Origin: Sipunculus nudus
Taxonomy: Eukaryota > Annelida > Sipuncula > Golfingiida > Sipunculidae
DNA length: 64,000 bases
Assembly: GCA_026874595.1 (NCBI GenBank)
Contig: CM049315.1
Coordinates: 1,430,501 to 1,494,500, forward strand
Direction: 5' to 3'
Part shown: positions 4,576 through 54,539 of the stretch, one piece after another
Numbering within the stretch: the first letter of the stretch is position 1
Layout of the letters: every line of letters begins with the position of its first letter
Position numbers and translations under genes: made by a program
Notes under the pieces: generated by a model
The model's database searches: none
Told to the model about the DNA's origin: nothing
The model's input: only the letters and a program-made list of their open reading frames with translations

Positions 4576-4754
4576 TGGTACATTTTAATGTTAAAGAAAA
4601 AGAGATGTGGAGTGAAATGAAGTCTTTACGCAGAGCTGTTGATTAAATGTTAATTGTAACCGATCTTAGAAATTAAATTTAAGAAATATGTTCCCTGCTT
4701 ATGCTTTTAGAAATATTTGACTTTAAATCGAAGTAACATATTGGTAGATAATAC

Positions 4755-4961
4755 CTGAGCCTTGTGGTGCCACATTTTAGTCCAACGATTCCACACCAGG
4801 TGGCAGGTTGTCTGATACTCCCGCCAATATCACTTCCGATGCTTACTGCTGTCGCTCCGGCCGCAACAAGCGCCGCCTCCCCGCTGCTAGAACCCCCGGG
4901 CTGTCTACTCGTGTCCAGAGGGTTAGAAGTCTTCCCGTACAGAGGGTTCCAGCAGGTGTAA
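4755..4961 (-). CDS. FAAH: FAAH-like exon 7, amidase-signature core
   Basis: The exon is 207 nt, with acceptor ctcaaaag|T and donor CTCAG|gtatta, entering and leaving with a split codon. It holds the glycine/serine-rich amidase signature: [10 protein letters not shown], then [13 protein letters not shown] with the bridging Ser (codon 4889-4891), then GSDIGGSIR with the nucleophilic Ser (codon 4817-4819), then CGIVGLK. All three catalytic positions of the triad (counting the Lys of exon 4) are present, so the enzyme looks catalytically competent up to this point. The exon is clearly GC-richer than the surrounding introns, as expected for constrained coding DNA. Confidence 0.95.
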
Positions 4962-5188
4962 CTTTTGAGTGCAAAATTAATTAATTATACTATTGATTAA
5001 TTATACTATTAATTAAGTAAAAAGGTCTTGTAAAACTACAAACTTATCTCCGCCTAAGAATAGCAGTGTGATCAGTTATCTTTTAATAATGATTTTTAAT
5101 CACGATATATTCTAAATTCGGGTACATTTATCTTAAGACAAATTATTGCTTTGCTGTATTTTCGGTTGTTAGAAAAATTTCCATTTAC

Positions 5189-8754: not shown

Positions 8755-9416
8755 TACAGTATGGTGTATACATTTCATTTCAAGTGAGATAAATTTTTTT
8801 AAAGTGTGCATGCGATTTTAAAAATATGTATTTTTGTAGATCAAATTATCAGATTGTTCCTGGCGAAATTGAACCACAACTGATTCTGTGGGTTAACTCC
8901 TAGGCCACAGGATGGCGAAAACTCTGGAGAGGTACATGTCGTTTTAAGGGGGGTATCTTTTTTTTCAAAGTGTGCATATTATTTTAAATATAAATACAAA
9001 TACATTGAACAAATTGTCAGGCTTTGTCTCATCCCTGATTGCCTACGGGATAGTCATTACTAATAGACGCCTCATTCAGTATGGCTATACCCCTCAGCTA
9101 AATACCTGTAAAAACTCTGGAGAGGTACATTTCGTTTCAAGTGAGATATCTTTTTTCAAAGTGTGCACCGTATTTGAAATATATATTTATTAAAACACTG
9201 AACAAATTATCTGGCTGTGCCTCATCCCCTACGGGATGGGCGAAATTTAACCACACCAGGTGAAAACTCTGGAGAGGTACATTTTGTTTCAAGTGAGATA
9301 TCTTTATTCAAAGTTTGCCATTTTTTTAATTATATAGTAATACATTTAACCAAATATCAGGCTGTGCCTCATTGCCTACGGGATAGTCAATAATAAGAAA
9401 CGCCTCATTCAGTAAC
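8755..9416. repeat. tandem repeat of about 150-200 bp, four copies
   Basis: Four diverged copies share actctggagaggtaca, then a (t)caagtgagatatctt block, then caaagtgtgca, then a caaatta.cagg.tgt.cctcat block. Starts are near 8755, 8908, 9111 and 9262. The last copy ends (cgcctcattcagta) exactly where the minus-strand gypsy fragment begins. The same terminal motif ends the second copy. Confidence 0.75.
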
Positions 9417-10370
9417 TGGTGGCTTTTGTCTATCTCTGGTCAGGAGGATCATTATTTTCGATATTGCCGGATCCTCTTGTTGTAGTTTCCGGAGGGTATC
9501 TGTGTCATATTCTTGACACCACTCCTCAAATGACTGACTGTCCGGCGAACTCTGTACGGTGTCATTCGCAATATCATAGCTGTTAGCCTGACTACTCATA
9601 TGAATCGCTGAGATCTTTCTTGTATCTGGTCTTAAACATTCCTTCCTTTTACACTGCCGACAAGGGATCCTGCTTAAAGCGTCAGCAATGGTATGCTTGG
9701 TCCCTGCTCTGTTTTCGATTTCAAACGAGTACATGTCTAACACAGTAAGCCATCGTGCTAACATCCCTTCAACGTTCCGAAAGTTCTTTAACCATCTCAG
9801 CGACGCGTGATCGGTTCGGACAATAAAGTTTCGTCCCCACAAATAGTGTCTGAAATGTTTAATGAACGTTACAACTGCCAAAAGCTCACGTTTTGTGGTA
9901 CAGTAGTTACGTTGAGAACGATTGAGGGTTCTGCTGCCATACGCTATAACACGTTCTTCGATACCCTGAAGTTGGGACAGCACGGCACCCATACCTTCAC
10001 CACTCGCGTCGGTATCCAAAATGAACTGGTCGTTTTCAGTAGGATACGACAACAAGGGAGCTTCTGTAAGTGCTTCCTTAAGCGCTTCAAACGACTTTTG
10101 GCTTTCAGTCCATTGAAACGATTTCTTTCGGCGCAGCAATCTCTGAAAATCTGTTGATGTGTGTACGGTAGTAAGCCGCCAAACTGAGAAAACTGCCAAC
10201 TTAGTTAGGCTATTTGGTACTGGCCACTCTTCAAATGCTTTGACTTTGTCGGGGTCACACCTGACACCATCAGCTGACACTGGGTGTCCTAAGAATGTCA
10301 CACTGCTTTGGAATAAATGGCATTTGTTTGGTTTCAGTTTTAAGTTGGCTTCCCGAAACCTCTGCCACAC
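9405..10370 (-). pseudogene. gypsy pol: RT thumb, RNase H and linker
   Basis: The longest open stretch of the window (321 codons). The N-terminal part carries the RT palm/thumb segment with TFLGHPVSADG. Next comes the RNase H domain, with ILDTDASGEGMGAVLSQ (first catalytic Asp), a YCTTKRELLAV block (catalytic Glu) and RTDHASL (Asp), followed by HTIADALSR. The C-terminal linker stops at 9405 before any integrase zinc finger. It belongs to a Ty3/gypsy pol of the common invertebrate type. It is a remnant, since the upstream RT is interrupted by stops. Confidence 0.92.
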
Positions 10371-10374
10371 AGTT

Positions 10375-11065
10375 ATTAGATTTTCTAGTGCATTGTTAAA
10401 GTCTTGTCAAACACATATCACGTCATCAATGTAGACTAAACACTGTCTCCACCGTAGGCCTCGTAAGACATTTTCCATCAGGCGTTCGTAGCTCGCGGGC
10501 GCATTACACAGGCCAAAAGGCATGACCTTGAACTGGTGAAAACCGAGATGTGTACAGAACACGGTCTTTTCTTTCGATCAATCGTCGGCCATCTTGAGCT
10601 ACCGATAACCTGAGGCCATATCAAGTGTCGAAAACCACTGACTACCGGATAAAGTGTCCAACGAATCATCAAAACGCTGTAACGGGTACACTTCTGTTCG
10701 CTTCACGTTATTGAGCCGCCGGTAATCGACGCAAAATCGTACTCCTCCGTCTTTCTTGATTACGAGCACTATCGTTGAGGCCCTAGGGCTGTTACGGGGT
10801 TCTATAATGCCTTGGTCTAACATCTTTTGTACCTCTGCCTCTACTACAACTTTCTGGGATTGTGGTACCCGCCGCGGTGGTTGTTTATTCGGGGTTTATA
10901 ACCAGTATCGATCTTGTGTTTGGCCATATTTGTAAGGCCTAACGTTTCATCTGGTCCCAGGAAGATATCTTGATAAGCAAATATAGCTGCTTTTAGGCGA
11001 CTCACTTGATCACGAGTAAGGTCACCAGGTATATTGTCTATTAATGGCTGCAAGTGTTCAGGCAA
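10375..11065 (-). pseudogene. gypsy pol: RT fingers and palm, broken
   Basis: Segments include an N-terminal RT lead (AKHKIDTG-like), then IIEPRNSPRASTIVLVIKKDGG and FCVDYRRLN, then FSTLDMASGYR with a catalytic Asp, and a YIDD motif at about 10416-10430 followed by an in-frame TGA. At least two frameshifts separate these pieces, so no full RT can be made. Confidence 0.88.
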
Positions 11066-14667: not shown

Positions 14668-14862
14668 TCACAGTCTGCTCATGTAGTTACATGCATATAC
14701 AGCCACACCAAGGACTGTGACGGCAGCCATCCAGAGAAGCTGGGTAACTGAGGGTAAGCAAGGCTCATGCAGATGTTTCACCTGAACGTCAGGGAAGTTG
14801 TCATGTTCTGGCTCATCTTGCCAGATCTGGGAGGAAGGAATGCGCCCAAAATCATGCAGAAC
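14668..14862 (-). CDS. MAO: MAO terminal exon, C-terminal tail anchor and stop
   Basis: The exon is 195 nt including the TGA at 14668-14670, with acceptor tttgtag|GTT in phase 0. It starts VLHDFGRIPSSQIWQDEPE, matching the MAO segment after the flavin domain (V-L-x-x-x-G-x-I/V, then I-W-x-x-E-P-E). The end is a hydrophobic helix (LLWMAAVTVLGVAVYACNY) followed by MSRL, the mitochondrial outer-membrane tail anchor. It is close to the family length and shows no damage. Confidence 0.93.
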   Translation of the reverse strand, partial: VLHDFGRIPSSQIWQDEPEHDNFPDVQVKHLHEPCLPSVTQLLWMAAVTVLGVAVYACNYMSRL

Positions 14863-15850: not shown

Positions 15851-18800
15851 TTCTTTTTCTTTCTTCTATTATGGCTGATACTGACCTCTCTTTCTTATTC
15901 TTTCTACTATCATGGCTGGGCCTGACCTCTCTTTCTGGTTATTTCTACTATCATGGCTGGGACTGACCTCTCTTTCTGGTTATTTCTACTATCATGGCTG
16001 GGACTGACCTCTCTTTCTGGTTATTTTTACTATCATGGCTGGGACTTGTACTATCATGGCTGGGAATGACCTCTCTTTCTGGTTATTTCTACTATCATGG
16101 CTGGGACTGACCTCTCTTTCTTGTTCTTTCTACTATCATGGCTGGGCCTGACCTCTCTTTCTGGTTATTTCTACTATCATGGCTGGGACTGACCTCTCTT
16201 TCTTGTTCTTTCTTCTATTATGACTGAGACTGACCTCTCTTTCTTATTCTTTCTACTATCATGGCTGGGCCTGACCTCTCTTTCTGGTTATTTCTACTAT
16301 CATGGCTGGGACTGACCTCTCTTTCTTGTTCTTTCTACTATCATGGCTGGGCCTGACCTCTCTTTCTGGTTATTTCTACTATCATGGCTGGGACTGACCT
16401 CTCTTTCTTGTTCTTTCTTCTATTATGGCTGAGACTGACCTCTCTTTCTTGTTCTTTCTACTATCATGGCTGGGACTGACCTCTCTTTCTTGTTCTTTCT
16501 ACTATCATGGCTTGGACTGACCTCTCTTTCTTGTTCTTTCTTCTATAATGGCTGAGACTAACCTCTCTTTCTTGTTCTTTCTACTATCATGGCTGGGACT
16601 GACCTCTCTTTCTTGTTCTTTCTTCTATCATGGCTGGGAGTGACCTCTCTTTCTTGTTCTTTCTTCTAACATGGCTGGGACTGGCCTCTCTTTCTGGTTA
16701 TTTCTACTATCATGGCTGGGACTGGCCTCTCTTTCTGGTTATTTCTACTATCATGGCTGGGACTGACCTCCCTTTCTGGTTATTTCTACTAACATGGCTG
16801 GGACTGACCTCCCTTTCTTGTTCTTTCTACTATCATGGCTGGGACTGACCTCTCTTTCTGGTTATTTCTACTATCATGGCTGGGACTGACCTCTCTTTCT
16901 TGTTCTTTCTACTATCATGGCTGGGACTGACCTCTCTTTCTGGTTATTTCTAATATCATGGCTAGGCCTGACCTCTCTTTCTTGTTCTTTCTACTATCAT
17001 GGCTGGGACTGGCCTCTCTTTCTGGTTATTTCTACTATCATGGCTGGGACTGACCTCTCTTCTCTTTCTTGTTCTTTCTACTATCATGGCTGGGACTGAC
17101 CTCTCTTTCTGGTTATTTCTACTATCATGGCTGGGACTGACCTTTCTTTCTTGTTCTTTCTACTATCATGGCTGGGACTGACCTCTCTTTCTGGTTATTT
17201 CTACTATCATGGCTGGGACTGACCTCTCTTTCTTGTTCTTTCTACTATCATGGCTGGGACTCACCTCTCTTTCTGGTTTTTTCTCCTATCATGGATGGGA
17301 CTGACCTCTCTTTCTTGTTCTTTCTACTATCATGGCTGGGACTGACCTCTCTTTCTGGTTATTTCTAATATCATGGCTAGGCCTGACCTCTCTTTCTTGT
17401 TCATCCTACTATCATGGCTGGGACTGGCCTCTCTTTCTGGCTATTTCTACTATCATGGCTGGGACTGACCTCTCTTTCTTGTTCTTTCTACTATCATGGC
17501 TGGGACTGGCCTCTCTTTCTGGTTATTTCTACTATCATGGCTGGGACTGACCTCTCTTTCTTGTTCTTTCTACTATCATGGCTGGGACTTAGCTCTCTTT
17601 CTTGTTCTTTCTTCTATTATGGCTGAGACTGACCTCTCTTTCTTGTTCTTTCTTCTATTATGGCTGATACTGACCTCTCTTTCTTATTCTTTCTACTATC
17701 ATGGCTGGGCATGACCTCTCTTTCTGGTTATTTCTACTATCATGGCTGGGACTGACCTCTCTTTCTGGTTATTTCTCCTATCATGGCTGGGACTGACCTC
17801 TCTTTCTGGTTATTTTTACTATCATGGCTGGGACTTGTACTATCATGGCTGGGAATGACCTCTCTTTCTGGTTATTTCTACTATCATGGCTGGGACTGAC
17901 CTCTCTTTCTTGTTCTTTTTACTATCATGGCTGGGCCTGACCTCTCTTTCTGGTTATTTCTACTATCATGGCTGGGACTGACCTCTCTTTCTTGTTCTTT
18001 CTTCTATTATGGCTGAGACTGACCTCTCTTTCTTGTTCTTTCTACTATCATGGCTGGGACTGGCCTCTCTTTCTGGTTATTTCTACTATCATGGCAGGGA
18101 CTGACCTCTCTTTCTTGTTCTTTCTACTATCATGGCTGGGACTGGCCTCTCTTTCTGGTTATTTCTACTATCATGGCTGGGACTGACCTCTCTTTCTGGT
18201 TATTTCTACTATCATGGCTGGGCCTGACCTCTCTTTCTTGTTCTTTCTTCTATCATGGCTGGGACTGACTTCTCTTTCTGGTTATTTCTACTATCATGGC
18301 TGGGACTGACCTCTCTTTTTTGTTCTTTCTACTATCATGGCTGGGCCTGCCCTCTCTTTCTGGTTATTTCTACTATCATGGCTGGGAATGACCTCTCTTT
18401 CTGGTTATTTCTTATATCATGGCTGGGACTGACCTCTCTTTCTTGTTCTTTCTACTATCATGGCTGGGCCTGACCTCTCTTTCTGGTTATTTCTACTATC
18501 ATGGCTGGGACTGACCTCTCTTTCTGGTTATTTCTACTATCATGGCTGGGACTGGCCTCTCTTTCTGGTTATTTCTACTATCATGGCTAGGACTGACCTC
18601 TCTTTCTTGTTCTTTCTTCTATTATGGCGGGGACTGGACTCTCTTTCTGGTTATTTCTACTATCATGGCTGGGACTTGTACTATCATGGCTGGGACTGAC
18701 CTCTCTTTCTTGTTCTTTCTTCTAACATGGCTGGGACTGGCCTCTCTTTCTGGTTATTTCTACTATCATGGCTGGGACTGACCTCTCTTTCTTGTTCTTT

Positions 18801-21800
18801 CTTCTAACATGGCTGGGCCTGACCTCTCTTTCTGGTTATTTCTACTATCATGGCTGGGACTGACCGCTCTTTCTGATTATTTCTACTATCATGGCTGGGA
18901 CTGACCTTTCTTTCTTGTTCTTTCTTCTAACATGGCTGGGACTGGCCTCTCTTTCTGGTTATTTCTACTATCATGGCTGGGACTGGCCTCTCTTTCTGGT
19001 TATTTCTACACTCATGGCTGGGCTGACCTCCCTTTCTGGTTATTTCTACTAACATGGCTGGGACTGACCTCTCTTTCTTGTTCTTTCTACTAACATGGCT
19101 GGGACTGACCTCTCTTTCTGGTTATTTCTACTATCATGGCTGGGACTGACCTCTCTTTCTTGTTCTTTCTACTATCATGGCTGGGACTGACCTCTCTTTC
19201 TGGTTATTTCTAATCTCATGGCTAGGCCTGACCTCTCTTTCTTGTTCTTTCTACTATCATGGCTGGGACTGACCTCTCTTTCTGGTTATTTCTACTATCA
19301 TAGCTGGGACTGACCTCCTTTTCTTGTTCTTTCTTCTATTATGGCTGGGACTGGCCTCTCTTTCTGGTTATTTCTACTATCATGGCTGGGACTTGTACTA
19401 TCATGGCTGGGACTGACCTCTCTTTCTTGTTCTTTCTTCTAACATGGCTGGGACTGGCCTCTCTTTCTGGTTATTTCTACTATCATGCATAGGATTGAAT
19501 TCTCTTTTTTGTTCTTTCTTCTAACATGGCTGGGACTGACATCTCTTTCTGGTTATTTCTACTATCATGGCTGGGACTGACCTCTCTTTCTTGTTCTTTC
19601 TTCTAACATGGCTGGGCCTGACCTCTCTTTCTGGTTATTTCTACTATCATGGCTGGGACTGACCACTCTTTCTGGTTATTTCTACTATCATGGCTGGGAC
19701 TGACCTTTCTTTCTTGTTCTTTCTTCTAACATGGCTGGGACTGGCCTCTCTTTCTGGTTATTTCTACTACCATGGCTGGGACTGGCCTCTCTTTCTGGTT
19801 ATTTCTACACTCATGGCTGGGACTGACCTCCCTTTCTGGTTATTTCTACTAACATGGCTGGGACTGACCTCTCTTTCTTGTTCTTTCTACTACCATGGCT
19901 GGGACTGACCTCTCTTTCTGGTTATTTCTACTATCATGGCTGGGACTGACCTCTCTTTCTTGTTCTTTCTACTATCATGGCTGGGACTGACCTCTCTTTC
20001 TGGTTATTTCTAATCTCATGGCTAGGCCTGACCTCTCTTTCTTGTTCTTTCTACTATCATGGCTGGGACTGACCTCTCTTTCTGGTTATTTCTACTATCA
20101 TAGCTGGGACTGACCTCTCTTTCTTGTTCTTTCTTCTATCATGGCTGGGACTGACCTCTCTTTCTGGTTATTTCTACTATCATGGCTGGGACTGACCTCT
20201 CTTTCTTGTTCTTTCTACTATCATGGCTGGGACTGACCTCTCTTTCTTGTTCTTTCTACTATCATGGCTGGGACTGACCTCTCTTTCTTGTTCTTTCTTC
20301 TATTATGGCTGAGACTGACCTCTCTTTCTTGTTCTTTCTACTATCATGGCTGGGACTGACCTCTCTTTCTTGTTCTTTCTTCTATCATGGCTGGGACTGA
20401 CCTCTCTTTCTGGTTATTTCTACTATCATGGCTGGGACTGACCTCTCTTTCTTGTTCTTTCTACTATCATGGCTGGGACTGACCTCTCTTTCTTGTTCTT
20501 GCTACTATCATGGCTGGGACTGACCTCTCTTTCTTGTTCTTCCTTCTATTATGGCTGAGACTGACCTCTCTTTCTTGTTCTTCCTTCTATCATGGCTGGG
20601 ACTGACCTTTCTTTCTTGTTCTTTCTTCTATTATGGCTGAGACTGACCTCTCTTTCTTGTTCTTTCTACAATCATGGCTGGGACTGACCTCTCTTTCTTG
20701 TTCTTTCTTCTATCATGGCTGGGACCGACCTCTCTTTCTGGTTATTTCTACTATCATGGCTGGGACTGACCTCTCTTTCTTGTCCTTTCTACTCTCATGG
20801 CTGGGACTGACCTCTCTTTCTGGTTATTTCTACTATCATGGCTGGGACTGACCTCTTTTTCTGGTTATTTCTACTATCATGGCTGGGACTGACCTCTCTT
20901 TCTGGTTATTTCTACTATCATGGCTGGGACTGACCTCTCTTTCTTGTTATTTCTACTATCATGGCTGGGACTGACCTCTCTTTCTTGTTCTTTCTTCTAT
21001 CATGGCTGGGACTGACCTCTCTTTCTTGTTATTTCTACTATCATGGCTGGGAATGACCTCTCTTTCTGGTTATTTCTACTATCATGGCTGGGACTTGTAC
21101 TATCATGGCTGGGACTGACCTCTCTTTCTGGTTATTTCTACTATCATGGCTGGGACTGACCTCTCTTTCTGGTTATTTCTACTATCATAGCTGGGACTGG
21201 CCTCTCTTTCTGGTTATTTCTACTATCATGGCTGGGACTGACCTCTCTTTCTTGTTCTTTCTACTATCATGGCTGGGACTGGCCTCTCTTTCTGGTTATT
21301 TCTACTATCATGGCTGGGACTGACCTCTCTTTTCTTGTTCTTTCTACTATCATGGCTGGGCCTGACCTCTCTTTCTGGTTATTTCTACTATCATGGCTAG
21401 GTCTGACCTCTCTTTCTGGTTATTTCTACTATCATGGCTGGCACTTGTACTATTATGGCTGGGACTAACCTCTCTTTCTGGTTATTTCTACTATCATGGC
21501 TGGGACTGACCTCTCTTTCTGGTTATTTCTACTATCATGGCTGGGACTGGCCTCTCTTTCTGGTTATTTCTACTATCATGGCTGGGACTGACCTCTCTTT
21601 CTGGTTATTTCTACTATCATGGCTGGGACTTGTACTATCATTGCTGGGACTGACCTCTCTTTCTGGTTATTTCTACTATCATGGCTGGGACTGACCTCTC
21701 TTTCTGGTTATTTCTACTATCATGGCTGGGACTGGCCTCTCTTTCTGGTTATTTCTACTATCATGGCTGGGACTGACCTCTCTTTCTTGTTCTTTCTACT

Positions 21801-24800
21801 ATCATGGCTGGGACTGTCCTCTCTTTCTGGTTATTTCTACTATCATGGCTGGGACTGACCTCTCTTTCTTGTTCCTTCTACTATCATGGCTGGGCCTGAC
21901 CTCTCTTTCTGGTTATTTCTACTATCATGGCTAGGTCTGACCTCTCTTTCTGGTTATTTCTACTATCATGGCTGCGACTTGTACTATCATGGCTGGGACT
22001 GACCTCTCTTTCTGGTTATTTCAACTATCATGGCTGGGACTGACCTCTCTTTCCGGTTATTTCTACTATCATGGCTGGGACTGGCCTCTCTTTCTGGTTA
22101 TTTCTACTATCATGGCTGGGACTGACCTCTCTTTCTTGTTCTTTCTACTATCATGGCTGGGACTGGCCTCTCTTTCTGGTTATTTCTACTATCATGGCTG
22201 GGACTGACCTCTCTTTCTGGTTATTTCTACTATCATTGCTGGGACTGACCTCTCTTTCTTGTTCTTTCTACTATCATGGCTGGGACTGACCTCTCTTTCT
22301 GGTTATTTCTAATATCATGGCTAGGCCTGACCTCTCTTTCTTGTTATTTCTACTATCATGGCTGGGACTGACCTCTCTTTCTGGTTATTTCTACTTTCAT
22401 GGCTGGGACTGACCTCTCTTTCTTGTTCTTTCTTCTATCATGGCTGGGACTGACCTCTCTTTCTGGTTATTTCTACTATCATGGCTGGGACTGACCTCTC
22501 TTTCTTGTTCTTTCTACTATCATGGCTGGGACTGACCTCTCTTTCTTGTTCTTTCTACTATCATGGCTGGGACTGACCTCTCTTTCTTGTTCTTTCTTCT
22601 ATTATGGCTGAGACTGACCTCTCTTTCTTGTTCTTTCTACTATCATGGCTGGGACTGACCTCTCTTTCTTGTTCTTTCTTCTATCATGGCTGGGACTGAC
22701 CTCTCCTTCTGGTTATTTCTACTATCATGGCTGGGACTGACCTCTCTTTCTTGTTCTTTCTACTATCATGGCTGGGACTGACCTCTCTTTCTTGTTCTTT
22801 CTACTATCATGGCTGGGACTGACCTCTCTTTCTTGTTCTTTCTTCTATTATGGCTGAGACTGACATCTCTTCCTGTTCTTTCTACTATCAAGGGTGGGAC
22901 TGACCTCTCTTTCTTGTTCTTTCTTCTATCATGGCTGGGACTGACCTCTCTTTCTTGTTATTTCTACTATCATGGCTGGGACTGACCTCTCTTTCTTGTT
23001 CTTTCTACTATCATGGCCGGGACTGACCTCTCTTTCTTGTTCTTTCTACCATCATGGCTGGGACTGACCTCTCTTTCTTGTTCTTTCTTCTATTATGGCT
23101 GAGACTGACCTCTCTTTCTTGTTCTTTCTTCTATCATGGCTGTGACTGACCTCTCTTTCTTGTTCTTTCTTCTATTATGGCTGAGACTGACCTCTCTTTC
23201 TTGTTCTTTCTACAATCATGGCTGGGACTGACCTCTCTTTCTTGTTCTTTCTTCTATCATGGCTGGGACTGACCTCTCTTTCTGGTTATTTCTACTATCA
23301 TGGCTGGGACTGACCTCTCTTTCTTGTTCTTTCTACTATCATTGCTGGGACTGACCTCTCTTTCTGGTTATTTCTACTATCATGGCTGGGACTGACCTCT
23401 CTTTCTTGTTCTTTCTAATATCATGGCTGGGACTGACCTCTCTTTCTGGTTATTTCTACTATCATGGCTGGGACTGACCTCTCTTTCTTGTTATTTCTAC
23501 TATCATGGCTGGGACTGACCTCTCTTTCTTGTTCTTTCTTCTATCATGGCTGGGACTGACCTCTCTTTCTTGTTATTTCTACTATCATGGCTGGGACTGA
23601 CCTCTCTTTCTGGTTATTTCTACTATCATGGCTGGGACTTGTACTATCAAGGCTGGGACTGACCTCTCCTTCCGGTTATTTCTACTATCATGGCTGGGAC
23701 TGACTTCTCTTTCTGGTTATTTCTAATATCATGGCTGGGACTGGCCTCTCTTTCTGGTTATTTCTACTTTCATGGCTGGGACTGACCTCTCTTTCTTGTT
23801 CTTTCTACTATCATGGCTGGGACTGGCCTCTCTTTCTGGTTATTTCTACTATCATGGCTGGGACTGACCTCTCTTTCTTGTTCTTTCTACTATCATGGCT
23901 GGGCCTGACCTCTCTTTCTGGTTATTTCTACTATCATGGCTAGGTCTGACCTCTCTTTCTGGTTATTTCTACTATCATGGCTGGGACTTGTACTATCATG
24001 GCTGGGACTGACCTCTCTTTCTGGTTATTTCTACTATCATGGCTGGGACTGACCTCTCTTTCTGGTTATTTCTACTATCATGGCTGGGACTGACCTCTCT
24101 TTCTTGTTCTTTCTACTATCATGGCTGGGCCTGACCTCTCTTTCTGGTTATTTCTACTATCATGGCTAGGCCTGACCTCTCCTTCTGGTTATTTCTACTA
24201 TCATTGCTGGGACTTGTACTATCATGGCTGGGACTGACCTCTCTTTCTGGTTATTTCTACTATCATGGCTGGGACTGACCTCTCTTTCTGGTTATTTCTA
24301 CTATCATGGCTGGGACTGGCCTCTCTTTCTGGTTATTTCTACTATCATGGCTGGGACTGACCTCTCTTTCTTGTTCTTTCTACTATTATGGCTGGGACTG
24401 GCCTCTCTTTCTGGTTATTTCTACTATCATGGCTGGGACTTGTACTATCATGGCTGGGACTGACCTCTCTTTCTGATTATTTCTACTATCATGGCTGGGA
24501 CTGACCTCTCTTTCTGGTTATTTCTACTATTATGGCTGGGACTGACCTCTCTTTCTAGTTATTTCTACTATCATGGCTAGGACTTGTACTATCATGGCTG
24601 GGACTGACCTCTCTTTCTGGTTATTTCTACTATCATGGCTGAGACTGACCTCTCTTTCTTGTTCCTTCTACTATCATGGCTGGGACTGGCCTCTCTTTCT
24701 GGTTATTTCTAATATCATGGCTGGGACTGACCTCTCTTTCTGGTTATTTCTACTATCACGGCTGGGACTGACCTCTCATTCTGGTTATTTCTACTATCAT

Positions 24801-25174
24801 GGCTGGGACTGATCTCTCATTCTGGTTATTTCTACTATCATTGCTGGGACTGACCTCTCTTTCTGGTTATTTCTACTATCATGGCTGGGACTGACCTCTC
24901 TTTCTGGTTATTTCTACTATTATGGCTGGGACTGACCTCTCTTTTTGGTTATTTCTACTATCATGGCTGGGACTAATCTTTCTAGTTATTTTTACTATCG
25001 TGGTTGGAACTGATCTCTCCTTCTTGTTATTTGTACTATCATGGCTAGGACTGACCTCTCTTTCTGGTTATTTCTACTATCATGGCTGGGACTAATCTTT
25101 CTGGTTATTTTTACTATTGTGGTTGGAACTGATCTCTCCTTCTTGTTATTTGTACTATCATGGATATGACTGAC
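15851..25174. repeat. 41-bp minisatellite, about 225 copies, starting at a MAO splice donor
   Basis: Head-to-tail copies of a 41-bp unit with core atcatggctgggactgacct. Two main variants differ in the tail (ttctggttattt or ttcttgttcttt). Longer variants ending in an extra short unit (cttgtactatcatgg) recur, and blocks are re-duplicated (for example 15860-16110 resembles 17650-17910, and 18880-19340 resembles 19680-20120). The array fills nearly the whole last MAO intron. Its right end is the exon border itself: on the minus strand each unit reads AGAG|GTCAGTC, the same as the true exon end and donor at 25175/25174. Plus-strand open frames in it are artefacts of repetition. Confidence 0.97.
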
Positions 25175-25286
25175 CTCTTTTGCTGCTCGTTCCCCTGCCT
25201 GTATTGCTCCTTCCATGAAGCCTGCCCAGCATGTAGCCGTCTCTGTTGATGCAAAATAAACTCGCTTGAAGGGGACTCTCAGTTCC
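25175..25286 (-). CDS. MAO: MAO exon with the flavin-side TETAT motif
   Basis: The exon is 112 nt, with acceptor attttcag|G and donor AAAGAG|gtcagt. It encodes [18 protein letters not shown] and then [18 protein letters not shown]. This is the conserved C-terminal FAD-binding block, normally F-A-G-T-E-T-A-T and W-S-G-Y-M-E-G in MAO. Two positions differ: Gly to Ser in FAS, and the aromatic-cage Tyr to Phe (codon 25217-25219). The donor is the origin of the adjoining 41-bp array, and the frame stays open about 55 codons into that array. Confidence 0.95.
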
Positions 25287-25435: not shown

Positions 25436-28400
25436 TCCTTTAGGTACATGTACCCAAGACAACTGTTCTAGGTTCATATGTTTCTACTAACAAGCTTTAA
25501 GGAACATGTACCCAGACAAATGTACCAGGTTCATATGTTTCGACTAACAAGATTTCAGGGACATGTAACCATGACAACTGTACCAGGTTCATATGTTTCT
25601 ACTAACAAGCTTTAAAGTGCATGTACCCAAGACAGGTGTACTAGGTTCTAATGTTTCTACTATCAAGCTTTAAGGGACATGTATCCCAGACAACTGTACC
25701 AGGTTCATATGTTTCTACTAACAAGCTTTAGGGTACATGTATCCAATACAACTGTACCAGGTTCATATGTTTCTACTAACAATCTTTAAGGGACATGTAC
25801 CCAAGACAACTGTACCAGGTTCATATCTTTCTACTAACAAGCTTTAAGGAACATGTACCCAAACAATTGTACCAGGTTCATATGTTTCTACTAACAAGCT
25901 TTCAGGGACATGTACCCATGACAACTGTACCAGGTTCATATGTTTCTACTAACAAGCTTTAAGGTACATGTACCCAAGACCTCTGTACCAGGTTCATTTG
26001 TTTCTACTAACAAGCTTTAAGGGACATGTACCCCAGACAACTGTACTAGGTTCTAATGTTTCTACTAACAAGCTTTAAGGGACATGTATCCTAGACAACT
26101 GTACCAGGTTCATATGTTTCTACTAACAAGCTTTAAGGAACATGTACCCAGACAACTGTACTAGGTTCTAATGTTTCTACTAACAAGCTTTAAGGAACAT
26201 GTACCCAAACAGTTGTACCAGGTTCATATGTTTCTACTAACAAGCTTTAAGGAACATGTACCCCAGACAACTGTACTAGGTTCTAATGTTTCTACTAACA
26301 AGCTTTAAGGAACATGTACCCAAGACCTCTGTACCAGGTTCATTTGTTTCTACTAACAAGCTTTAAGGGACATGTACCCCAGACAGCTGTACTAGGTTCT
26401 AATGTTTCTACTATCAAGCTTTAAGGGACATGTATCATAGACAACTGTACCAGGTTCATATGTTTCTACTAACACGCTTTAAGGTACATGTACCCAAGAT
26501 CTCTGTACCAGGTTCATTTGTTTCTACTAACAAACTTTAAGGGACATGTACCCCAGACAGCTGTACTAGGTTCTAATGTTTCTACTATCAAGCTTTAAGG
26601 GACATGTATCATAGACAACTGTACCAGGTTCATATGTTTCTACTAACAAGCTTTAAGGTATATGTACCCAAAACAACTGTACCAGGTTCATATTTTTCTA
26701 CTAACAAGCTTTAAGGGACATGTATCCCAGACAACTGTACCAGGTTCATATGTTTCTACTAACAAGCTTTAAGGTACATGTACCCAACACAACTGTACCA
26801 GGTTCATATGTTTCTACTAACAAGCTTTAAGGGACATGTACCCAAGACAACGGTATCAGGTTCATATGTTTCTACTAACAAGCTTTAAGGGACATGTACC
26901 CATGACAACTGTACCAGGTTCATATGTTTCTACTAACAAGCTTTCAGGTACATGTACCCAAGACATCTGTACCAGGTTCATTTGTTTCTACTAACAAGCT
27001 TTAAGGGACATGTACCCCAGACAACTGTACCAGGTTCATATGTTTCTACTGACAAGCTTTAAGGTACATGTACCGAAGAAAACTGTACCAGGTTCATATG
27101 TTTCTACTAACAAGCTTTAAGGGAAATGTACCCCAGACAGCTGTACCAGGATCATATGTTTCTACTGACAAGATTTAAGGGACATGTACCCAAGACAACT
27201 GAACCATGTTAATATGTTTCTACTAACAAGCTTTTAGGGACATGTACCCAAGACAACTGTACCATGTTAATATGTTTCTACTAACAAGCTTTAAGGTACA
27301 TGTACCCAAGACTGTACTAGGTTCATATGTTTCTACTAACAAGCTTTAAGGTAAATGTACCCCAGACAGCTGTACCAGGTTCATATGTTTCTACTAACAA
27401 GCTTCAAGGGACATGTACCCAAAATAACTGTACCATGTTAATATGTTTCTACTAACAAGCTTTAAGGTACATGTACCCAAGACTGTACTAGGTTCATATG
27501 TTTCTACTAACAAGCTTTCAGGTACATGTACCCAAGACATCTTTACCAGGTTCATTTGTTTCTACTAACAATCTTTAAGGCACATGTACCCTAGACAACT
27601 GTACCAGGTTCATATGTTTCTACTGACAAGCTTTAAGGGACATGTACCGAAGACAACTGTACCAGGTTCATATGTTTCTACTAACAAGCTTCAAGGGAAA
27701 TGTGCCCCAGACAGCTGCACCTGGTTCATATGTTTCTACTAACAAGCTTTAAGGGACATGTACCCAAGACAACTGTACCAGGTTCATATGTTTCTACTAA
27801 CAAGCTTTAAGGAACATGTACCCAAGACTGTACTAGGTTCATATGTTTCTACTAACAAGCTTTAAGGGACATGTATCCCAGACAACTGTACCAGGTTCAT
27901 ATGTTTCTACTAACAAGCTTTAAGGTACATGTACCCAACACAACTGTACCAGGTTCATATGTTTCTACTAACAAGCTTTAAGGGACATGTACCCAAGACA
28001 ACGGTATCAGGTTCATATGTGTCTACTAACAAGCTTTAAGGGACATGTACCCATGACAACTGTACCAGGTTCATATGTTTCTAATTACAAGCTTTCAGGT
28101 ACATGTACCCAAGGCATCTGTACCAGGTTCATTCGTTTCTACTAACAAGCTTTAAGGCACATGTACCCTAGACAACTGTACCAGGTTCTAATGTTTCTAC
28201 TGACAAGCTTTAAGGGACATGTTCCGAAGAAAACTGTACCCGGTTCATATGTTTCTACTTACAAGCTTAAAAGGAAATGTACCCCAGACAGCTGCACCAG
28301 GTTCATATGTTTCTACTAACAAGCTTTAAGGGACATGAACCCAAGACAACTGTACCAGGTTCATATGTTTCTACTAAGAGCTTTAAGGGACATGTACCCA

Positions 28401-31400
28401 AGACAACTTTACCAGGTTCATATTTTTCTACTAACAAGCTTCAAGGGAAATGTGCCCCAGACAGCTGCACCTGGTTCATATGTTTATACTAACAAGCTTT
28501 AAGGGACATGTACCCAAGACAACTGTACTAGGTTCATATGTTTCTACTAACAAGCTTTAAGGGACATGTATCCCAGACAACTGTACCAGGTTCATATGTT
28601 TCTACTAACAAGCTTTAAGGTACATGTACCCAACACAACTGTACCAGGTTCATATGTTTCTACTAACAAGCTTTAAGGGACATGTACCCAAGACAACGGT
28701 ATCAGGTTCATATGTTTCTACTAACAAGCTTAAAGGGACATGTACCCATGACAACTGTACCAGGTTCATATGTTTCTACTAACAAGCTTTCAGGTACATG
28801 TACCCAAGGCATCCGTACCAGGTTCATTCGTTTCTACTAACAAGCTTTAAGGCACATGTACCCAATACAACTGTACCTGGTTCATATGTTTCTACTAAAA
28901 AGCTTTAAGGGACATGTACCCCAGACAACTGTACCAGGTTCTTATGTTTGTACTAACAAGCTTTAGGGGACATGTATCCCAGACAACTGTACCAGGTTTA
29001 TATGTTTCTACTAACAAGCCTTAAGGTACATGTACCCAATACAACTGTACCAGGTTCATATGTTTCTACTAACAAGCTTAAAGGGACATGTACCGAAGAC
29101 AACTGTACCAGGTTCATATGTTTCTACTCACAAGCTTTAAGGTACATGTACCCAATACAACTGTACCAAGTTCTTATGTTTCTACTAACAAGCTTTAAGG
29201 TACATGTACCCAAGACTGTACTAGGTTCATATGTTTCTACTAACAAGCTTTCAGGTACATGTACCCAAGACATCTTTACCAGGTTCATTTGTTTCTACTA
29301 ACAAGCTTTAAGGCACATGTACCCTAGACAACTGTACCAGGTTCATATGTTTCTACTGACAAGCTTTAAGGGACATGTACTGAAGACAACTGTACCAGGT
29401 TCATATGTTTCTACTAACAAGCTTCAAGGGAAATGTGCCACAGACAGCTGCACCTGGTTCATATGTTTCTACTATCAAGCTTTAAGGGACATGTACCCAA
29501 GACAACTGTACCAGGTTCATATGTTTCTACTAACAAGCTTTAAGGAACATGTACCCAAGACTGTACTAGGTTCATATGTTTCTACTAACAAGCTTTAAGG
29601 GACATGTATCCCAGACAACTGTACCAGGTTCATATGTTTCTACTAACAAGCTTTAAGGTACATGTACCCAACACAACTGTACCAGGTTCATATGTTTCTA
29701 CTAACAAGCTTTAAGGGACATGTACCCAAGACAACGGTATCAGGTTCATATGTTTCTACTTACAAGCTTTAAGGGACATGTACCCATGACAACTGTACCA
29801 GGTTCATATGTTTCTACTAACAAGCTTTCAGGTACATGTACCCAAGGCATCTGTACCAGGTTCATTCGTTTCTACTAACAAGCTTTAAGGCACATGTACC
29901 CTAGACAACTGTACCAGGTTCATATGTTTCTACTGACAAGCTTTAAGGGACATGTTCCGAAGAAAACTGTACCCGGTTCATATGTTTCTACTTACAAGCT
30001 TTAAGGTACATGTACCCCAGACAGCTGCACCAGGTTCATATGTTTCTACTAACAAGCTTTAAGGGACATGTACCCAAGACAACTGTACCAGGTTCATATG
30101 TTTCTACTAAGAACTTTAAGGGACATGTACCCAAGACAACTTTACCAGGTTCATATTTTTCTACTAACAAGCTTTAAGGTACATGTACCCAAGACAACTG
30201 TACTAGGTTCTTATGTTTCTACTAACAAGCTTTAAGGGACATGTGTCCCAGACAACTGTACCAGGTTCATATGTTTCTACTAACAAGCTTTAGGGTACAT
30301 GTACACAATACAACTGTACCAGGTTCATATGTTTCTACTTACAATCTTTAAGGGACATGTACCCAAGACAACTGTACCAGGTTCATATCTTTCTACTAAC
30401 AAGCTTTAAGGAACATGTACACAATACAACTGTACCAGGTTCATTTGTTTCTACTAACAAGCTTTAAGGGACATGTACCCAATATAACTGTACCTGGTTC
30501 ATATGTTTCTACTGACAAGCTTTAAGGGACATGTACCGAAGACAACTGTACCAGGTTCATATGTTTCTACTAACAAGCTTCAAGGGAAATGTGCCACAGA
30601 CAGCTGCACCTGGTTCATATGTTTCTACTATCAAGCTTTAAGGGACATGTACCCAAGACAACTGTACCAGGTTCATATGTTTCTACTAACAAGCTTTAAG
30701 GAACATGTACCCAAGACTGTACTAGGTTCATATGTTTCTACTAACAAGCTTTAAGGGACATGTATCCCAGACAACTGTACCAGGTTCATATGTTTCTACT
30801 AACAAGCTTTAAGGTACATGTACCCAACACAGCTGCACCAGGTTCATATGTTTCTACTAACAAGCTTTAAGGGACATGTACCCAAGACAACTGTACCAGG
30901 TTCATATGTTTCTACTGACAAGCTTTAAGGGACATGTACCGAAGACAACTGTACCAGGTTCATATGTTTCTACTAACAAGCTTCAAGGGAAATGTGCCCC
31001 AGACAGCTGCACCTGGTTCATATGTTTCTACTAACAAGCTTTAAGGGACATGTACCCAAGACAACTGTACCAGGTTCATATGTTTCTACTAACAAGCTTT
31101 AAGGAACATGTACCCAAGACTGTACTAGGTTCATATGTTTCTACTAACAAGCTTTAAGGGACATGTATCCCAGACAACTGTACCAGGTTCATATGTTTCT
31201 ACTAACAAGCTTTAAGGTACATGTACCCAACATAACTGTACCAGGTTCATATGTTTCTACTAACAAGCTTTAAGGGACATGTACCCATGACAACTGTACC
31301 AGGTTCATATGTTTCTACTAACAAGCTTTCAGGTACATGTACCCAAGGCATCTGTACCAGGTTCATTCGTTTCTACTAACAAGCTTTAAGGCACATGTAC

Positions 31401-34400
31401 CCTAGACAACTGTACCAGGTTCATATGTTTCTACTGAAAAGCTTTAAGGGACATGTACCGAAGACAACTGTACAAGGTTCATATGTTTCTACTAACAAGC
31501 TTCAAGGGAAATGTGCCCCAGACAGCTGCACCTGGTTCATATGTTTATACTAACAAGCTTTAAGGGACATGTACCCAAGACAACTGTACTAGGTTCATAT
31601 GTTTCTACTAACAAGCTTTAAGGGACATGTATCCCAGACAACTGTACCAGGTTCATATGTTTCTACTAACAAGCTTTAAGGTACATGTACCCAACACAAC
31701 TGTACCAGGTTCATATGTTTCTACTAACAAGCTTTAAGGGACATGTACCCAAGACAACGGTATCAGGTTCATATGTTTCTACTAACAAGCTTAAAGGGAC
31801 ATGTACCCATGACAACTGTACCAGGTTCATATGTTTCTACTAACAAGCTTTCAGGTACAGGTACCCAAGGCATCCGTACCAGGTTCATTCGTTTCTACTA
31901 ACAAGCTTTAAGGCACATGTACCCAATACAACTGTACCTGGTTCATATGTTTCTACTAAAAAGCTTTAAGGGACATGTACCCCAGACAACTGTACCAGGT
32001 TCTTATGTTTGTACTAACAAGCTTTAGGGGACATGTATCCCAGACAACTGTACCAGGTTTATATGTTTCTACTAACAAGCCTTAAGGTACATGTACCCAA
32101 TACAACTGTACCAGGTTCATATGTTTCTACTAACAAGCTTAAAGGGACATGTACCGAAGACAACTGTACCAGGTTCATATGTTTCTACTCACAAGCTTTA
32201 AGGTACATGTACCCAATACAACTGTACCAAGTTCTTATGTTTCTACTAACAAGCTTTAAGGTACATGTACCCAAGACAACTGTACCAGGTTCATATCTTT
32301 CTACTAACAAGCTTTAAGGAACATGTACACAATACAACTGTACCAGGTTCATTTGTTTCTACTAACAAGCTTTAAGGGACATGTACCCAATATAACTGTA
32401 CCTGGTTCATATGTTTCTACTGACAAGCTTTAAGGGACATGTACCGAAGACAACTGTACCAGGTTCATATGTTTCTACTAACAAGCTTCAAGGGAAATGT
32501 GCCACAGACAGCTGCACCTGGTTCATATGTTTCTACTATCAAGCTTTAAGGGACATGTACCCAAGACAACTGTACCAGGTTCATATGTTTCTACTAACAA
32601 GCTTTAAGGAACATGTACCCAAGACTGTACTAGGTTCATATGTTTCTACTAACAAGCTTTAAGGGACATGTATCCCAGACAACTGTACCAGGTTCATATG
32701 TTTCTACTAACAAGCTTTAAGGTACATGTACCCAACACAACTGTACCAGGTTCATATGTTTCTACTAACAAGCTTTAAGGGACATGTACCCAAGACAACG
32801 GTATCAGGTTCATATGTTTCTACTAACAAGCTTTAAGGGACATGTACCCATGACAACTGTACCAGGTTCATATGTTTCTACTAACAAGCTTTCAGGTACA
32901 TGTACCCAAGGCATCTGTACCAGGTTCATTCCTTTCTACTAACAAGCTTTAAGGCACATGTACCCTAGACAACTGTACCAGGTTCATATGTTTCTACTGA
33001 CAAGCTTTAAGGGACATGTTCCGAAGAAAACTGTACCCGGTTCATATGTTTCTACTTACAAGCTTTAAGGTACATGTACCCTTAGACAGCTGCACCAGGT
33101 TCATATGTTTCTACTAAGAACTTTAAGGGACATGTACCCAAGACAACTTTACCAGGTTCATATTTTTCTACTAACAAGCTTTAAGGTACATGTACCCAAG
33201 ACAACTGTACTAGGTTCTTATGTTTCTACTAACAAGCTTTAAGGGACATGTATCCCAGACAACTGTACCAGGTTCATATGTTTCTACTAACAAGCTTTAG
33301 GGTACATGTACACAATACAACTGAACCAGGTTCATATGTTTCTACTTACAATCTTTAAGGGACATGTATCCCAGACAACTGTACCAGGTTCATATCTTTC
33401 TACTAACAAGCTTTAAGGAACATGTACCCAAACAATTGTACCAGTTTTATATGTTTCTACTAACAAGCTTTCAGGGAAATGTACCCATGACAACTGTACC
33501 AGGTTCATATGTTTCTACTAACAAGCTTTAAGGTACATGTACCCAAGACCTCTGTACCAGGTTCATTTGTTTCTACTAACAAGCTTTAAGGGACATGTAC
33601 CCCAGACAACTGTACTAGGTTCTAATGTTTCTACTAACAAGCTTTAAGGGACATGTATCCTAGACAACTGTACCAGGTTCATATGTTTCTTTTAACAAGC
33701 TTTAAGGAACATGTACCCAAACAACTGTACTAGGTTCTAATGTTTCTACTAACAAGCTTTAAGGAACATGTACCCAAACAATTGTACCAGGTTCATATGT
33801 TTCTACTAACAAGCTTTAAGGAACATGTACCCCAGACAACTGTACTAGGTTCTAATGTTTCTACTAACAAGCTTTAAGGAACATGTACCCAAACAATTGT
33901 ACCAGGTTCATATGTTTCTACTAACAAGCTTTCAGGGACATGTACCCATGACAACTGTGCCAGGTGCATATGTTTCTACTAACAAGCTTTAAGGTACATG
34001 TACACAAGACCTCTGTACCAGGTTCATTTGTTTCTACTAACAAGCTTTAAGGGACATGTACCCCAGACAGCTGTACTAGGTTCTAATGTTTCTACTATCA
34101 AGCTTTAAGGGACATGTATCATAGACAACTGTACCAGGTTCATATGTTTCTACTAACAAGCTTTAAGGTATATGTACCCAATACAACTGTACCAGGTTCA
34201 TATTTTTCTACTAACAAGCTTTAAGGGACATGTACCCAAGACAAAAGTACCAGGTTCATATGTTTCTACTAACAAGCCTTAAGGAACATGTACCCAGACA
34301 ATTGTACCAGGTTCACATGTTTCTACTAACAAGCTTTCAGGGACATGTAGCCATGACAACTGTACCAGGTTCCGATGTTTCTACTAACAAGCTTTCAGGT

Positions 34401-37400
34401 GAATGTACCCAAGACATCTGTACCAGGTTCATTTGTTTCTACTAACAAGCTTTAAGGGACATGTACCCCAGACAACTGTATGAGGTTCATATGTTTCTAC
34501 TGACAAGCTTTAAGGTACATGTACCGAAGAAAACTGTACCAGGTTCATATGTTTCTACTAACAAGCTTTAAGGGAAATGTACCCCAGACAGCTGTACCAG
34601 GATCATATGTTTCTACTAACAAGCTTGAAGGGACATGTACCCAAGACAACTGAACCATGTTAATATGTTTCTACTAACAAGCTTTAAGGGACATGTACCC
34701 AAGACAACTGTACCATGTTAATATGTTTCTACTAACAAGCTTTAAGGTACATGTACCCAAGACTGTACTAGGTTCAGATGTTTCTACTAACAAGCTTTAA
34801 GGGAAATGTACCCCAGACAGCTGTACCAGGTTCATATGTTTCTACTAACAAGCTTTAAGGGACATGTACCCAAGACAACTGTACCATGTTAATATGTTTC
34901 TACTAACAAGCTATGAGGTATATGTACCCAAGACTGTACTAGGTTCATATGTTTCTACTAACAAGCTTTAAGGGACATGTATCCCAGACAACTGTACCAT
35001 GTTAATATGTTTCTACTAACAAGCTTTAAGGTACATGTACCCCAGACAGCTGCACCAGGTTCATATGTTTCTACTAACAAGCTTTAAGGGACATGTACCC
35101 AAGACAACTGTACCAGGTTCATATGTTTCTACTAAGAGCTTTAAGGGACATGTACCCTAGACAACTGTACCAGGTTCATATGTTTCTACTGAAAAGCTTT
35201 AAGGGACATGTACCGAAGACAACTGTACAAGGTTCATATGTTTCTACTAACAAGCTTCAAGGGAAATGTGCCCCAGACAGCTGCACCTGGTTCATATGTT
35301 TATACTAACAAGCTTTAAGGGACATGTACCCAAGACAACTGTACTAGGTTCATATGTTTCTACTAACAAGCTTTAAGGGACATGTACCCAAGACTGTACT
35401 AGGTTCATATGTTTCTACTAACAAGCTTTAAGGGACATGTACCCAACACAACTGTACCAGGTTCATATGTTTCTACTAACAAGCTTTAAGGTACATGTAC
35501 CCAAGACAACTGTACTAGGTTCTTATGTTTCTACTAACAAGCTTTAAGGTACATGTACCCAACACAACTGTACCAGGTTCATATGTTTCTACTAACAAGC
35601 TTAAAGGGACATGTACCCAAGACAACGATATCAGGTTCATATGTTTCTACTAACAAGCTTTAAGGGACATGTACCCATGACAACTGTACCAGGTTCATAT
35701 GTTTCTACTAACAAGCTTTCAGGTACATGTACCCAAGGCATCCATACCAGGTTCATTCGTTTCTACTAACAAGCTTTAAGGCACATGTACCCTAGACAAC
35801 TGTACCAGGTTCATATGTTTCTACTGACAAGCTTTAAGGGACATGTACCAAAGAAAACTGTACCAGGTTCATATGTTTCTTCTTACAAGCTTTAAAGGAA
35901 ATGTACCCCAGACAGCTGCACCAGGTTCATATGTTTCTACTAACAAGCTTTAAGGGACATGTACCCAAGACAACTGTACCAGGTTCATATGTTTCTACTA
36001 AGAGCTTTAAGGGACATGTACCCAAGACAACTGTACCAGGTTCATATGTTTCTACTATCAAGCTTTAAGGTACATGTACCCAAGACAACTGTACTAGGTT
36101 CTTATGTTTCTACTAACAAGCTTTAAGGGACATGTATCCCAGACATCTGTACCAGGTTCATATGTTTCTACTAACAAGCTTTAAGGTACATGTACACAAT
36201 ACAACTGTACCAGGTTCATTTGTTTCTACTAACAAGCTTTAAGGGACATGTACCCAATACAACTGTACCTGGTTCATATGTTTCTACTAAAAAGCTTTAA
36301 GGGACATGTACCCCAGACAACTGTACCAGGTTCTTATGTTTGTACTAACAAGCTTTAGGGGACATGTATCCCAGACAACTGTACCAGGTTTATATGTGTC
36401 TACTAACAAGCCTTAATTTACATGTACCCAATACAACTGTACCAGGTTCATATATTTCTACTAACAAGCTTAAAGGGACATGTACCGAAGACAACTGTAC
36501 CAGGTTCATATGTTTCTACTCACAAGCTTTAAGGTACATGTACCCAATACAACTGTACCAAGTTCTTATGTTTCTACTAACAAGCTTTAAGGGACATGTA
36601 CCCATGACAACTGTACCAGGATCATATGTTTCTACTAACAAGCTTTAAGGGACATGTACCCTAGACAACTGGACCAGGTTCATATGTTTCTACTGACAAG
36701 CTTTAAGGGACATGTACCCAAGAAAACTGTACCAGGTTCATATGTTTCTACTAACAAGCTTTAAGGTACATATACCTAAGACAACTGCACTAGGTTCATA
36801 TGTTTCTACTAACAAGCCTTAAGTGACATGTACCCAAGACAACTGTACCATGTTAATATGTTTCTACTAACAAGCTTTAAGGTACATGTACACAAGACTG
36901 TATTAGGTTCATATGTTTCTACTAACAAGCTTTAAGGGAAATGTACCCCAGACAGCTGTACCAGGTTCATATGTTTCTACTAACAAGCTTTAAGGGACAT
37001 GTACCCAAGACAACTGTACCATGTTAATATGTTTCTACTAACAAGCTATAAGGTATATGTACCCAAGACTGTATTAGGTTCATATGTTTCTACTAACAAG
37101 CTTTAAGGGACATGTATCCCAGACAACTGTACCATTTTAATATTTTTCTACTAACAAGCTTTAAGGTACATGTACCCAAGACTGTACTAGGTTCATATGT
37201 TTCTACTAACAAGCTTTCAGGTACATGTACCCAAGACATCTTTACCAGGTTCATTTGTTTCTACTAAAATGCTTTAAGGCACATGTACCCTAGACAACTG
37301 TACCAGGTTCATAAGTTTCTACTGAAAAGCTTTAAGGGACATGTACCGAAGACAACTGTACAAGGTTCATATGTTTCTACTAACAAGCTTCAAGGGAAAT

Positions 37401-43230: not shown

Positions 43231-43328
43231 TGGCTGTATCTTGTCATGGCCCCCGGGGGCATACAGCTGACATAACATCCCCCGCTGTATTCCTCTGCCA
43301 TCCAGTTTTGTTCCTCATAGTGAACAGG
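43231..43328 (-). CDS. MAO: MAO exon with covalent FAD cysteine
   Basis: The exon is 98 nt, with acceptor ttgcag|CCT and donor CCA|gtaaga. It encodes [20 protein letters not shown] and then [15 protein letters not shown] contains the Cys (codon 43275-43277) that forms the 8-alpha-S-cysteinyl link to FAD in MAO, and the following Tyr is one wall of the aromatic cage. Its length equals the corresponding vertebrate exon as I remember it. Confidence 0.96.
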
Positions 43329-47023: not shown

Positions 47024-47168
47024 CTTTCCTCCTTTGATAAATCACAGAACTCCCTGGCCCGGTCAGCGAGGATAAATCCCATGATGCATGGGTATGAGCC
47101 GTCAGGTTTGGTGTCATCAACACAGTATATAATCGGAGACTTGTCACAAACCATCTCCCCACAGAGTG
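47024..47168 (-). CDS. MAO: MAO 145-nt exon (substrate-cavity region)
   Basis: The acceptor is gttgtag|CA and the donor GAAAG|gtactg, with split codons on both sides. It encodes LCGEMVCDKSPIIYCVDD, then TKPDGSYPCIMGFILADRA, matching the MAO L-D-D-T-K-P-D-G block. The Tyr two residues before V-D-D lies where human MAO-B has its gating Tyr and MAO-A an Ile. Two vertebrate exons (about 97+54 nt) are one exon here, shortened by 6 nt in the variable loop. Confidence 0.94.
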
Positions 47169-48279: not shown

Positions 48280-48299
48280 TACCCTTCCGGATGAGACAA

Positions 48300-49023: not shown

Positions 49024-49183
49024 ATTTCTCTCTCCAGTATGGCTTGTCATAGAAGGTCATTGTCTTGACGATGGAGCCCATTGGCATTCTCTGGATCATC
49101 TGTATTTTCATCGGTGGAAGAGGTGGGTCAAAGGTCACTCTGTTAAGGAGGCTGAGTGGCATGGCACTGACAATGTATCGACC
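49024..49183 (-). CDS. MAO: MAO exon with active-site lysine
   Basis: The exon is 160 nt, with acceptor ttgcgcag|GGT in phase 0 and donor AAAT|gtgagt. It encodes GRYIVSAMPLSLLNRVTFDP, then MIQRMPMGSIVKTMTFYDK and PYWREK. It matches the MAO block ending in F-W-x-K-K. The Lys of SIVK (codon 49064-49066) is the conserved Lys that holds a water near FAD N5. The 3' third of this exon is the source of the 88-bp array. The frame reads on through the donor for 43 codons into the first repeat copies. Confidence 0.95.
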
Positions 49184-49251
49184 CTGCGCAATACAGAGAA
49201 TAAATATGTATTAAAAGAACAGTGCCGCTAGTCTGGGTTTAATGGGAAAAT

Positions 49252-54535: not shown

Positions 54536-54539
54536 TTCA

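Follow-up and report, generated by a model that had tools for sequence, protein, structure and literature searches.

The human 6-16 (IFI6) minisatellite reportedly sits at an exon end and is said to have been described by Turri et al. in 1995 as containing multiple splice donor sites; arrays of this 6-16/IFI6 type are recognised by a donor motif within the repeat unit and by a start at the end of an exon. According to a sentence in a citing paper, the repeat units of the human minisatellite act as splice donors (PMC4526556). In lancelets, tandem repeats across exon-intron boundaries, known as 'mirages', are described in Adh3, the globins, troponin C and PGBD5; in the excerpts of the cited papers on which the comparisons made here draw, mirages are unstable in length and are homogenised within clusters with the exception of the boundary units, with 3 units in one BflGb6 haplotype and 6 in the other, each 150-160 bp long, repeats of 60 and 108 bp in PGBD5 and Adh3 units of 10-72 bp (PMC3087553, PMC3902484). 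Here, we describe a monoamine oxidase (MAO) gene of Sipunculus nudus in which two donor sites are each bordered by a minisatellite, one with a 41-bp unit in the last intron and the other with an 88-bp unit at an exon further upstream. The gene lies on the minus strand of a 64,000-nucleotide stretch of contig CM049315.1 (positions 1,430,501 to 1,494,500), the whole of which is referred to as the window.

We propose that both arrays are boundary-spanning minisatellites of the 'mirage' kind, which are neutral and tolerated as the exon-proximal donor is used, and hold this explanation with reasonable confidence. The likelihoods assigned to the various readings are not mutually exclusive and need not add up to one.

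Donor-bordering arrays of the MAO gene

The last intron of the MAO gene (10312 nt) is occupied to 90% by a 41-bp minisatellite (15851-25185, minus strand), delineated from the rows of Tandem Repeats Finder (TRF) and by cyclic alignment. It contains 235 unit slots, 221 of which are near full length (at most 6 positions missing). The penultimate exon, exon E (25175-25286; ELRVPFKRV...GERAAKE), ends in AAAGAG at 25175 and the intron opens with GTCAGTC at 25174, the authentic donor GAG/GTCAGT at 25175/25174 being placed within the first unit. The array starts at the end of exon E (25175) or up to 11 nt inside it, as given by the cyclic alignment from 25185. The original prediction, made from the sequence alone, that a tandem array borders a MAO exon and carries the authentic donor in its first unit was confirmed by the alignment from 25185 to 15851. 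With a donor-like motif in its unit and a start at an exon end, the array is of the 6-16/IFI6 type.

Exact copies of the donor are numerous, but fewer than the more than 200 claimed in that prediction: the array region contains 136 copies of AGAGGTCAGTC, 144 of AGGTCAGTC and 152 of GTCAGT, with the authentic site included in each count. Both strands of the window considered, all 144 occurrences of AGGTCAGTC fall in the array and 0 lie outside it, and they are not due to chance. C replaces T at +2 in 27 of the 221 near-full-length units. As judged by the U1 duplex energy calculated with ViennaRNA, 146 GT sites, the authentic one included, match or exceed the authentic donor (-6.2 kcal/mol). Contrary to what had been supposed, the copies do not follow the authentic donor immediately, the nearest other intact donors being 119, 238 and 279 nt downstream, and the reading frame stays open into the array for 59 codons rather than the estimated 55 or so. 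A 28-nt piece of the unit had 0 exact matches in a viral and 0 in a prokaryote collection.

The second array is located at the donor of exon B (49024-49183; GRYIVSAMPL...SIVKTMTFYDKPYWREK), which was identified by its similarity to the MAO-B sequences of PDB and is the source of the repeated exon sequence. The 88-bp array (48293-49076, minus strand; TRF and unit comparison) has a unit in which about 50 nt from the end of exon B are followed by the donor GTGAGTC and by 38 nt of intron sequence. Counting the authentic donor at 49023, the array holds 10 donors, with spacings of 87, 40, 87, 88, 40, 87, 88, 88 and 88 nt; the exon part is almost wholly missing in the 40-nt steps, and the four full 88-nt units show 2-4 differences in 50 positions from the real exon B end. 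The tandem units span the exon-intron boundary, as mirages do; irrespective of how the 41-bp array came about, the MAO gene thus possesses a donor-spanning array derived from an exon. The 88-bp unit shows no resemblance to the 41-bp one, their score being reached by 34% of 300 shuffles, from which we infer that the two arrays probably represent separate events. The 88-bp unit also matches 15226-15207 over 20 nt, which we attribute to chance.

Seven exons of the MAO gene, from 50172 to 14668 on the minus strand, form a single continuous frame when joined. Six of these, joined without exon C2, match PF01593 of Pfam (1.2e-42) and the MAO-B sequences of PDB (best 2.8e-89); in the protein used for both searches exon C2 was left out and one residue at that gap was set by reading. 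In addition to exon B, and to exon E, which is supported by the joined frame as well as by PDB MAO-B similarity, the joined frame gives exon A (50023-50172; ERKFVGGAQQL...GKVYK), exon C (47024-47168; SLCGEMVCDK...SKEER), exon C2 (44265-44322), whose donor AAG/GTCAGA is the second GTC-type donor of the gene, exon D (43231-43328; PVHYEEQNW...RYSQ) and the last exon (14668-14862). The last exon encodes a C-terminal hydrophobic segment, which we take to be the membrane anchor, followed by the stop. The frame is unbroken at the junction of exon E with the last exon (14862), and PDB MAO-B similarity is seen on both sides of it. More MAO exons are visible upstream on reading the sequence, near 57.3, 59.3, 60.3 and 61.6 kb.

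Origin and expansion of the arrays

According to the proposed explanation, a short segment beginning at the exon/intron junction, or some bases upstream of it, would have been duplicated in tandem, and unequal exchange would then have expanded the 41-bp segment into the intron to about 235 units, so that the authentic 5' splice site would recur in each intact unit. The same process would have acted on another donor of the gene with an unrelated 88-bp unit, in which exon sequence is plainly included. For the 41-bp array, seeding from the exon E donor is plausible though unproven, with the balance of the evidence tilted towards it.

The register of the 41-bp unit coincides with the authentic donor, which counts for seeding. 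With array position taken as uniform within the intron, the probability of touching the donor edge is about 0.001 for the 41-bp array and likewise for the 88-bp array; four arrays were considered in this test, and the other two, of 38 and 58 bp, do not touch a donor. The ten exon-side units of the 41-bp array show a mean of 3.5 differences from the consensus, as against 0.6-2.6 in the other ten-unit blocks, and form the most isolated block, with none of the 212 sliding blocks scoring higher. Seeding would have been contradicted by the oldest copies lying far from the exon, and this was not found, the most isolated units being those proximal to it. Units 1 and 4 carry T at position 27 and A at position 31, a haplotype that stands between the two main ones, and this intermediate form occurs in 8 of the 235 slots, all of them within the exon-side half of the array. 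Exact duplicates of another unit make up 144 of the 221 near-full-length units; together with the isolation of the first ten units, they are as expected from homogenisation by exchange.

Several observations weigh against the seeding of the 41-bp array, and the original claim that it grew from this donor stands in so far as the donor lies in the first unit, but is supported neither by an age gradient nor by exon similarity beyond AAAGAG. A gradient of age starting from unit 1 was rejected, the correlation of position with the distance to unit 1 being 0.05. The isolation of the exon-side units could be a plain edge effect; at the distal edge such an effect is shown solely by the last unit. When the exon tail is compared with the 41-bp unit in both of its consensus forms, the score of the real tail is reached by 4.25% of 2000 synonymous recodings and by 4.2% of 2000 shuffles; with the last two codons left out, that is, upstream of AAAGAG, 42.8% of the recodings do so. 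Hence, an exon origin of the unit beyond AAAGAG is not supported by recoding and shuffling: the units include the donor and the alignment extends 11 nt into the exon, with the similarity beyond AAAGAG not exceeding chance. An equally strong donor-like site is present in 11.2% of 1000 shuffled 41-mers and in 6.4% of 1000 41-bp windows sampled on the same strand from three stretches outside the arrays; the motif could thus have arisen without seeding.

The 41-bp array may instead have arisen within the intron, with a deletion at AAAGAG microhomology subsequently fusing it to the exon and an array copy replacing the original donor. The sequence shared on the exon side is limited to about AAAGAG, as a microhomology junction would leave, and the frequency of similarly strong sites in the non-array windows speaks for this history as well. 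It requires an additional event, however, and unit 1 differs from the consensus, units 1-3 resembling units 4-6 as a duplicated three-unit block; moreover, the same gene has in its 88-bp array one that is plainly seeded on a donor. We consider fusion rather unlikely as the origin of the 41-bp array. That the arrays were inflated or misplaced during assembly is very unlikely: arrays of such length are hard to assemble, but unit variation of many kinds is distributed along the 41-bp array, and the 88-bp array repeats the phenomenon on a small scale.

For the 41-bp array, seeding at the donor remains the preferred reading. That one gene has two donor-based arrays whose units are unlike suggests that exon ends may be recurrent starting points of minisatellites, with a bearing on intron growth and intron gain.

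Predicted consequences of the additional donors

Exon definition favours the exon-proximal donor, and the extra donors are on this ground most likely without a selected role; their stray use would lead to nonsense-mediated decay or to a MAO without its membrane anchor. The continuous frame predicted at the proximal donors is compatible with undisturbed regular splicing. Splicing from any GTCAGT site of the 41-bp array other than the authentic one (151 sites) is predicted to result in loss of the C-terminal segment. For 150 of the 152 sites the predicted stop lies more than 55 nt upstream of the last junction, the remaining two being the site at +119, with a predicted frameshift into the last exon, and the authentic site, with the normal product. 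Stops located further upstream of the last junction than 50-55 nt make transcripts targets of nonsense-mediated decay, and the 150 sites would therefore be decay targets.

Preferential conservation of the donor motif was not observed within the 41-bp array. Its ten-base donor segment has a mean identity of 93.4% to the majority and ranks 27th among 41 rotations, and the GT pair ranks 37th of 41, partly since gaps fall there in units that are shortened; there is accordingly no indication that selection maintains the motif or acts against it. Units 2 and 3 have lost GT, which might point to purging; as units 4-6 look copied from units 1-3, just two independent losses of GT are to be counted.

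The original prediction had viewed the copies as decoys or alternative donors, and in its functional form this reading holds that the array donors capture U1 or the exon, leading to decay or to an anchorless protein, with the copy number setting the output of MAO. It draws on the 146 GT sites whose predicted pairing with U1 equals or exceeds that of the authentic donor, this one included, on the 150 GTCAGT sites with stops at decay distance and, by analogy, on the excerpted finding that U1 bound downstream of a donor can alter its use (PMC5933811). The idea is weak, as the donor segment and GT are not preferentially conserved, the anchor would be lost, the closest competing donor is 119 nt off, and the lancelet mirage data, in the parts consulted, suggest that splicing is not interfered with (PMC3087553, PMC3902484). 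An off-switch of this kind is, in our view, improbable. A similarly low probability is given to the wider proposal that minisatellites of this lineage arise at splice donors and that the donor arrays of the MAO gene form a tunable sink, in which every added copy would present U1 with a site as good as the authentic one, its use leading to decay or to an anchorless enzyme, and the length of which would set MAO output and vary between individuals or cells.

In another reading, the AG/GT units would serve as acceptor and donor at once and the intron would be removed stepwise, by recursive or dual-specific splicing. There are 178 AG/GT sites counted in the 41-bp array, the excerpt on human UBC describes dual-specific sites arranged in tandem (PMC10809524), and a small number of other YAG sites are preceded by 11-12 pyrimidines within 20 nt, at the low end of the real acceptors. 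However, none of the 178 AG/GT sites follows an acceptor-like pyrimidine tract: they have at most 5 pyrimidines in the preceding 20 nt (median 2.5), as compared with 11-16 at the seven real acceptors, and the longest pyrimidine run in the whole array is 5. As the tracts are missing, recursive splicing at these sites is extremely unlikely. The 940 YAG sites of the array have a median of 7 pyrimidines in the preceding 20 nt (best 11-12), and occasional pseudo-exons may arise from the few better ones.

The polyadenylation signals AATAAA and ATTAAA are absent from the 41-bp array (0 versus 35 and 35 elsewhere on that strand); as the units copy one sequence, this amounts to about a single observation, and a protection from early polyadenylation was not built on it.

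For the 88-bp array, extension of exon B to the second donor (+87) is predicted to keep the frame, with no stop within exons B and C, and the extension to each of the remaining eight extra donors is predicted to meet a stop. A MAO form with 29 extra residues, produced through the second donor, is possible. In the first 87-nt unit (48936-49023), it is a one-base deletion that makes this extension in frame and open.

With up to about 150 donors of equal predicted U1 pairing, from which one is to be selected, and with nearly every wrong choice in the 41-bp array predicted to destroy the transcript, the MAO gene offers a natural test of how the spliceosome makes this selection.

Other arrays and neighbouring features

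The intron preceding exon B contains a 38-bp array (49247-49443, minus strand; TRF), which ends 63 nt before the exon B acceptor and has five acceptor-like TTTTCAG sites, any of which, if used, is predicted to meet an in-frame stop. By eye, its unit does not resemble the authentic exon B acceptor, and its pyrimidine runs beside AG are purer than those at that acceptor. A 58-bp minisatellite (25438-42424, minus strand; TRF) takes up 95% of the intron that precedes exon E, with 151 nt between its end and the acceptor of that exon; some TRF rows of this 17-kb array recur every 3349 bp, suggesting higher-order duplication. Kinship of the 41- and 58-bp units was rejected, the similarity being a weak one, a 12-nt stretch with one mismatch that 2 of 300 shuffles equal and that was the best of 15 pairs. 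Two further arrays found by TRF reach the ends of the window, one of 73 bp (1-2913) and the other of 119 bp (61841-63997), with acceptor-like and donor-like stretches seen by eye in the 119-bp unit.

Remains of retrotransposon pol genes are present at 9405-10406, with reverse transcriptase and RNase H domains identified by Pfam, and at about 53000-56500, inside a MAO intron, the latter judged from open reading frames alone. An amidase-family exon (PF01425, 1.3e-30) is located on the minus strand at 4679-4984 and may belong to a fatty-acid-amide-hydrolase-like gene beside MAO.

Comparison with known systems

Intron gain by duplication of proto-splice sites resembles the present case in the tandem duplication around a splice-site motif and differs from it in that an existing MAO intron was lengthened and no new intron is seen, as far as the available part of that study allows comparison (PMC2891723). 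The UBC array likewise repeats AG/GT in register in tandem, but its repeats are coding and are used as acceptor and donor, whereas the MAO array is intronic and its AG/GT sites are without pyrimidine tracts (PMC10809524, in part). The minisatellite units of 6-16/IFI6, like those of MAO, carry donor-like sites; there, in the accessible text, two downstream repeat donors are reportedly used in mRNA, in contrast to the MAO array, where use of the repeat donors is predicted to break the protein. In the passages available, the intronic minisatellites of an abalone gene and of earthworm metallothionein genes are not described as spanning splice sites. No donor-carrying array near 9.3 kb or about 235 units was found in the titles, opening lines of abstracts and passages covered among the matches listed in the open-licence literature, which does not prove its absence.

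The lancelet mirages, so far as their excerpted descriptions go, provide the closest likeness: the MAO arrays are also tandem at an exon/intron boundary, with splice signals in many units. The reported hosts of mirages are lancelets, and their known range would widen with a host that is not a lancelet. The MAO gene differs from the lancelet examples in the little or no exon sequence of its 41-bp unit, in the extent of that array, with about 235 units over 9.3 kb, and in having two donor arrays in one gene. The 41-bp donor array looks unusually large by comparison, and it is this scale, along with the occurrence of two donor arrays in the same gene, that stands out among the systems described.

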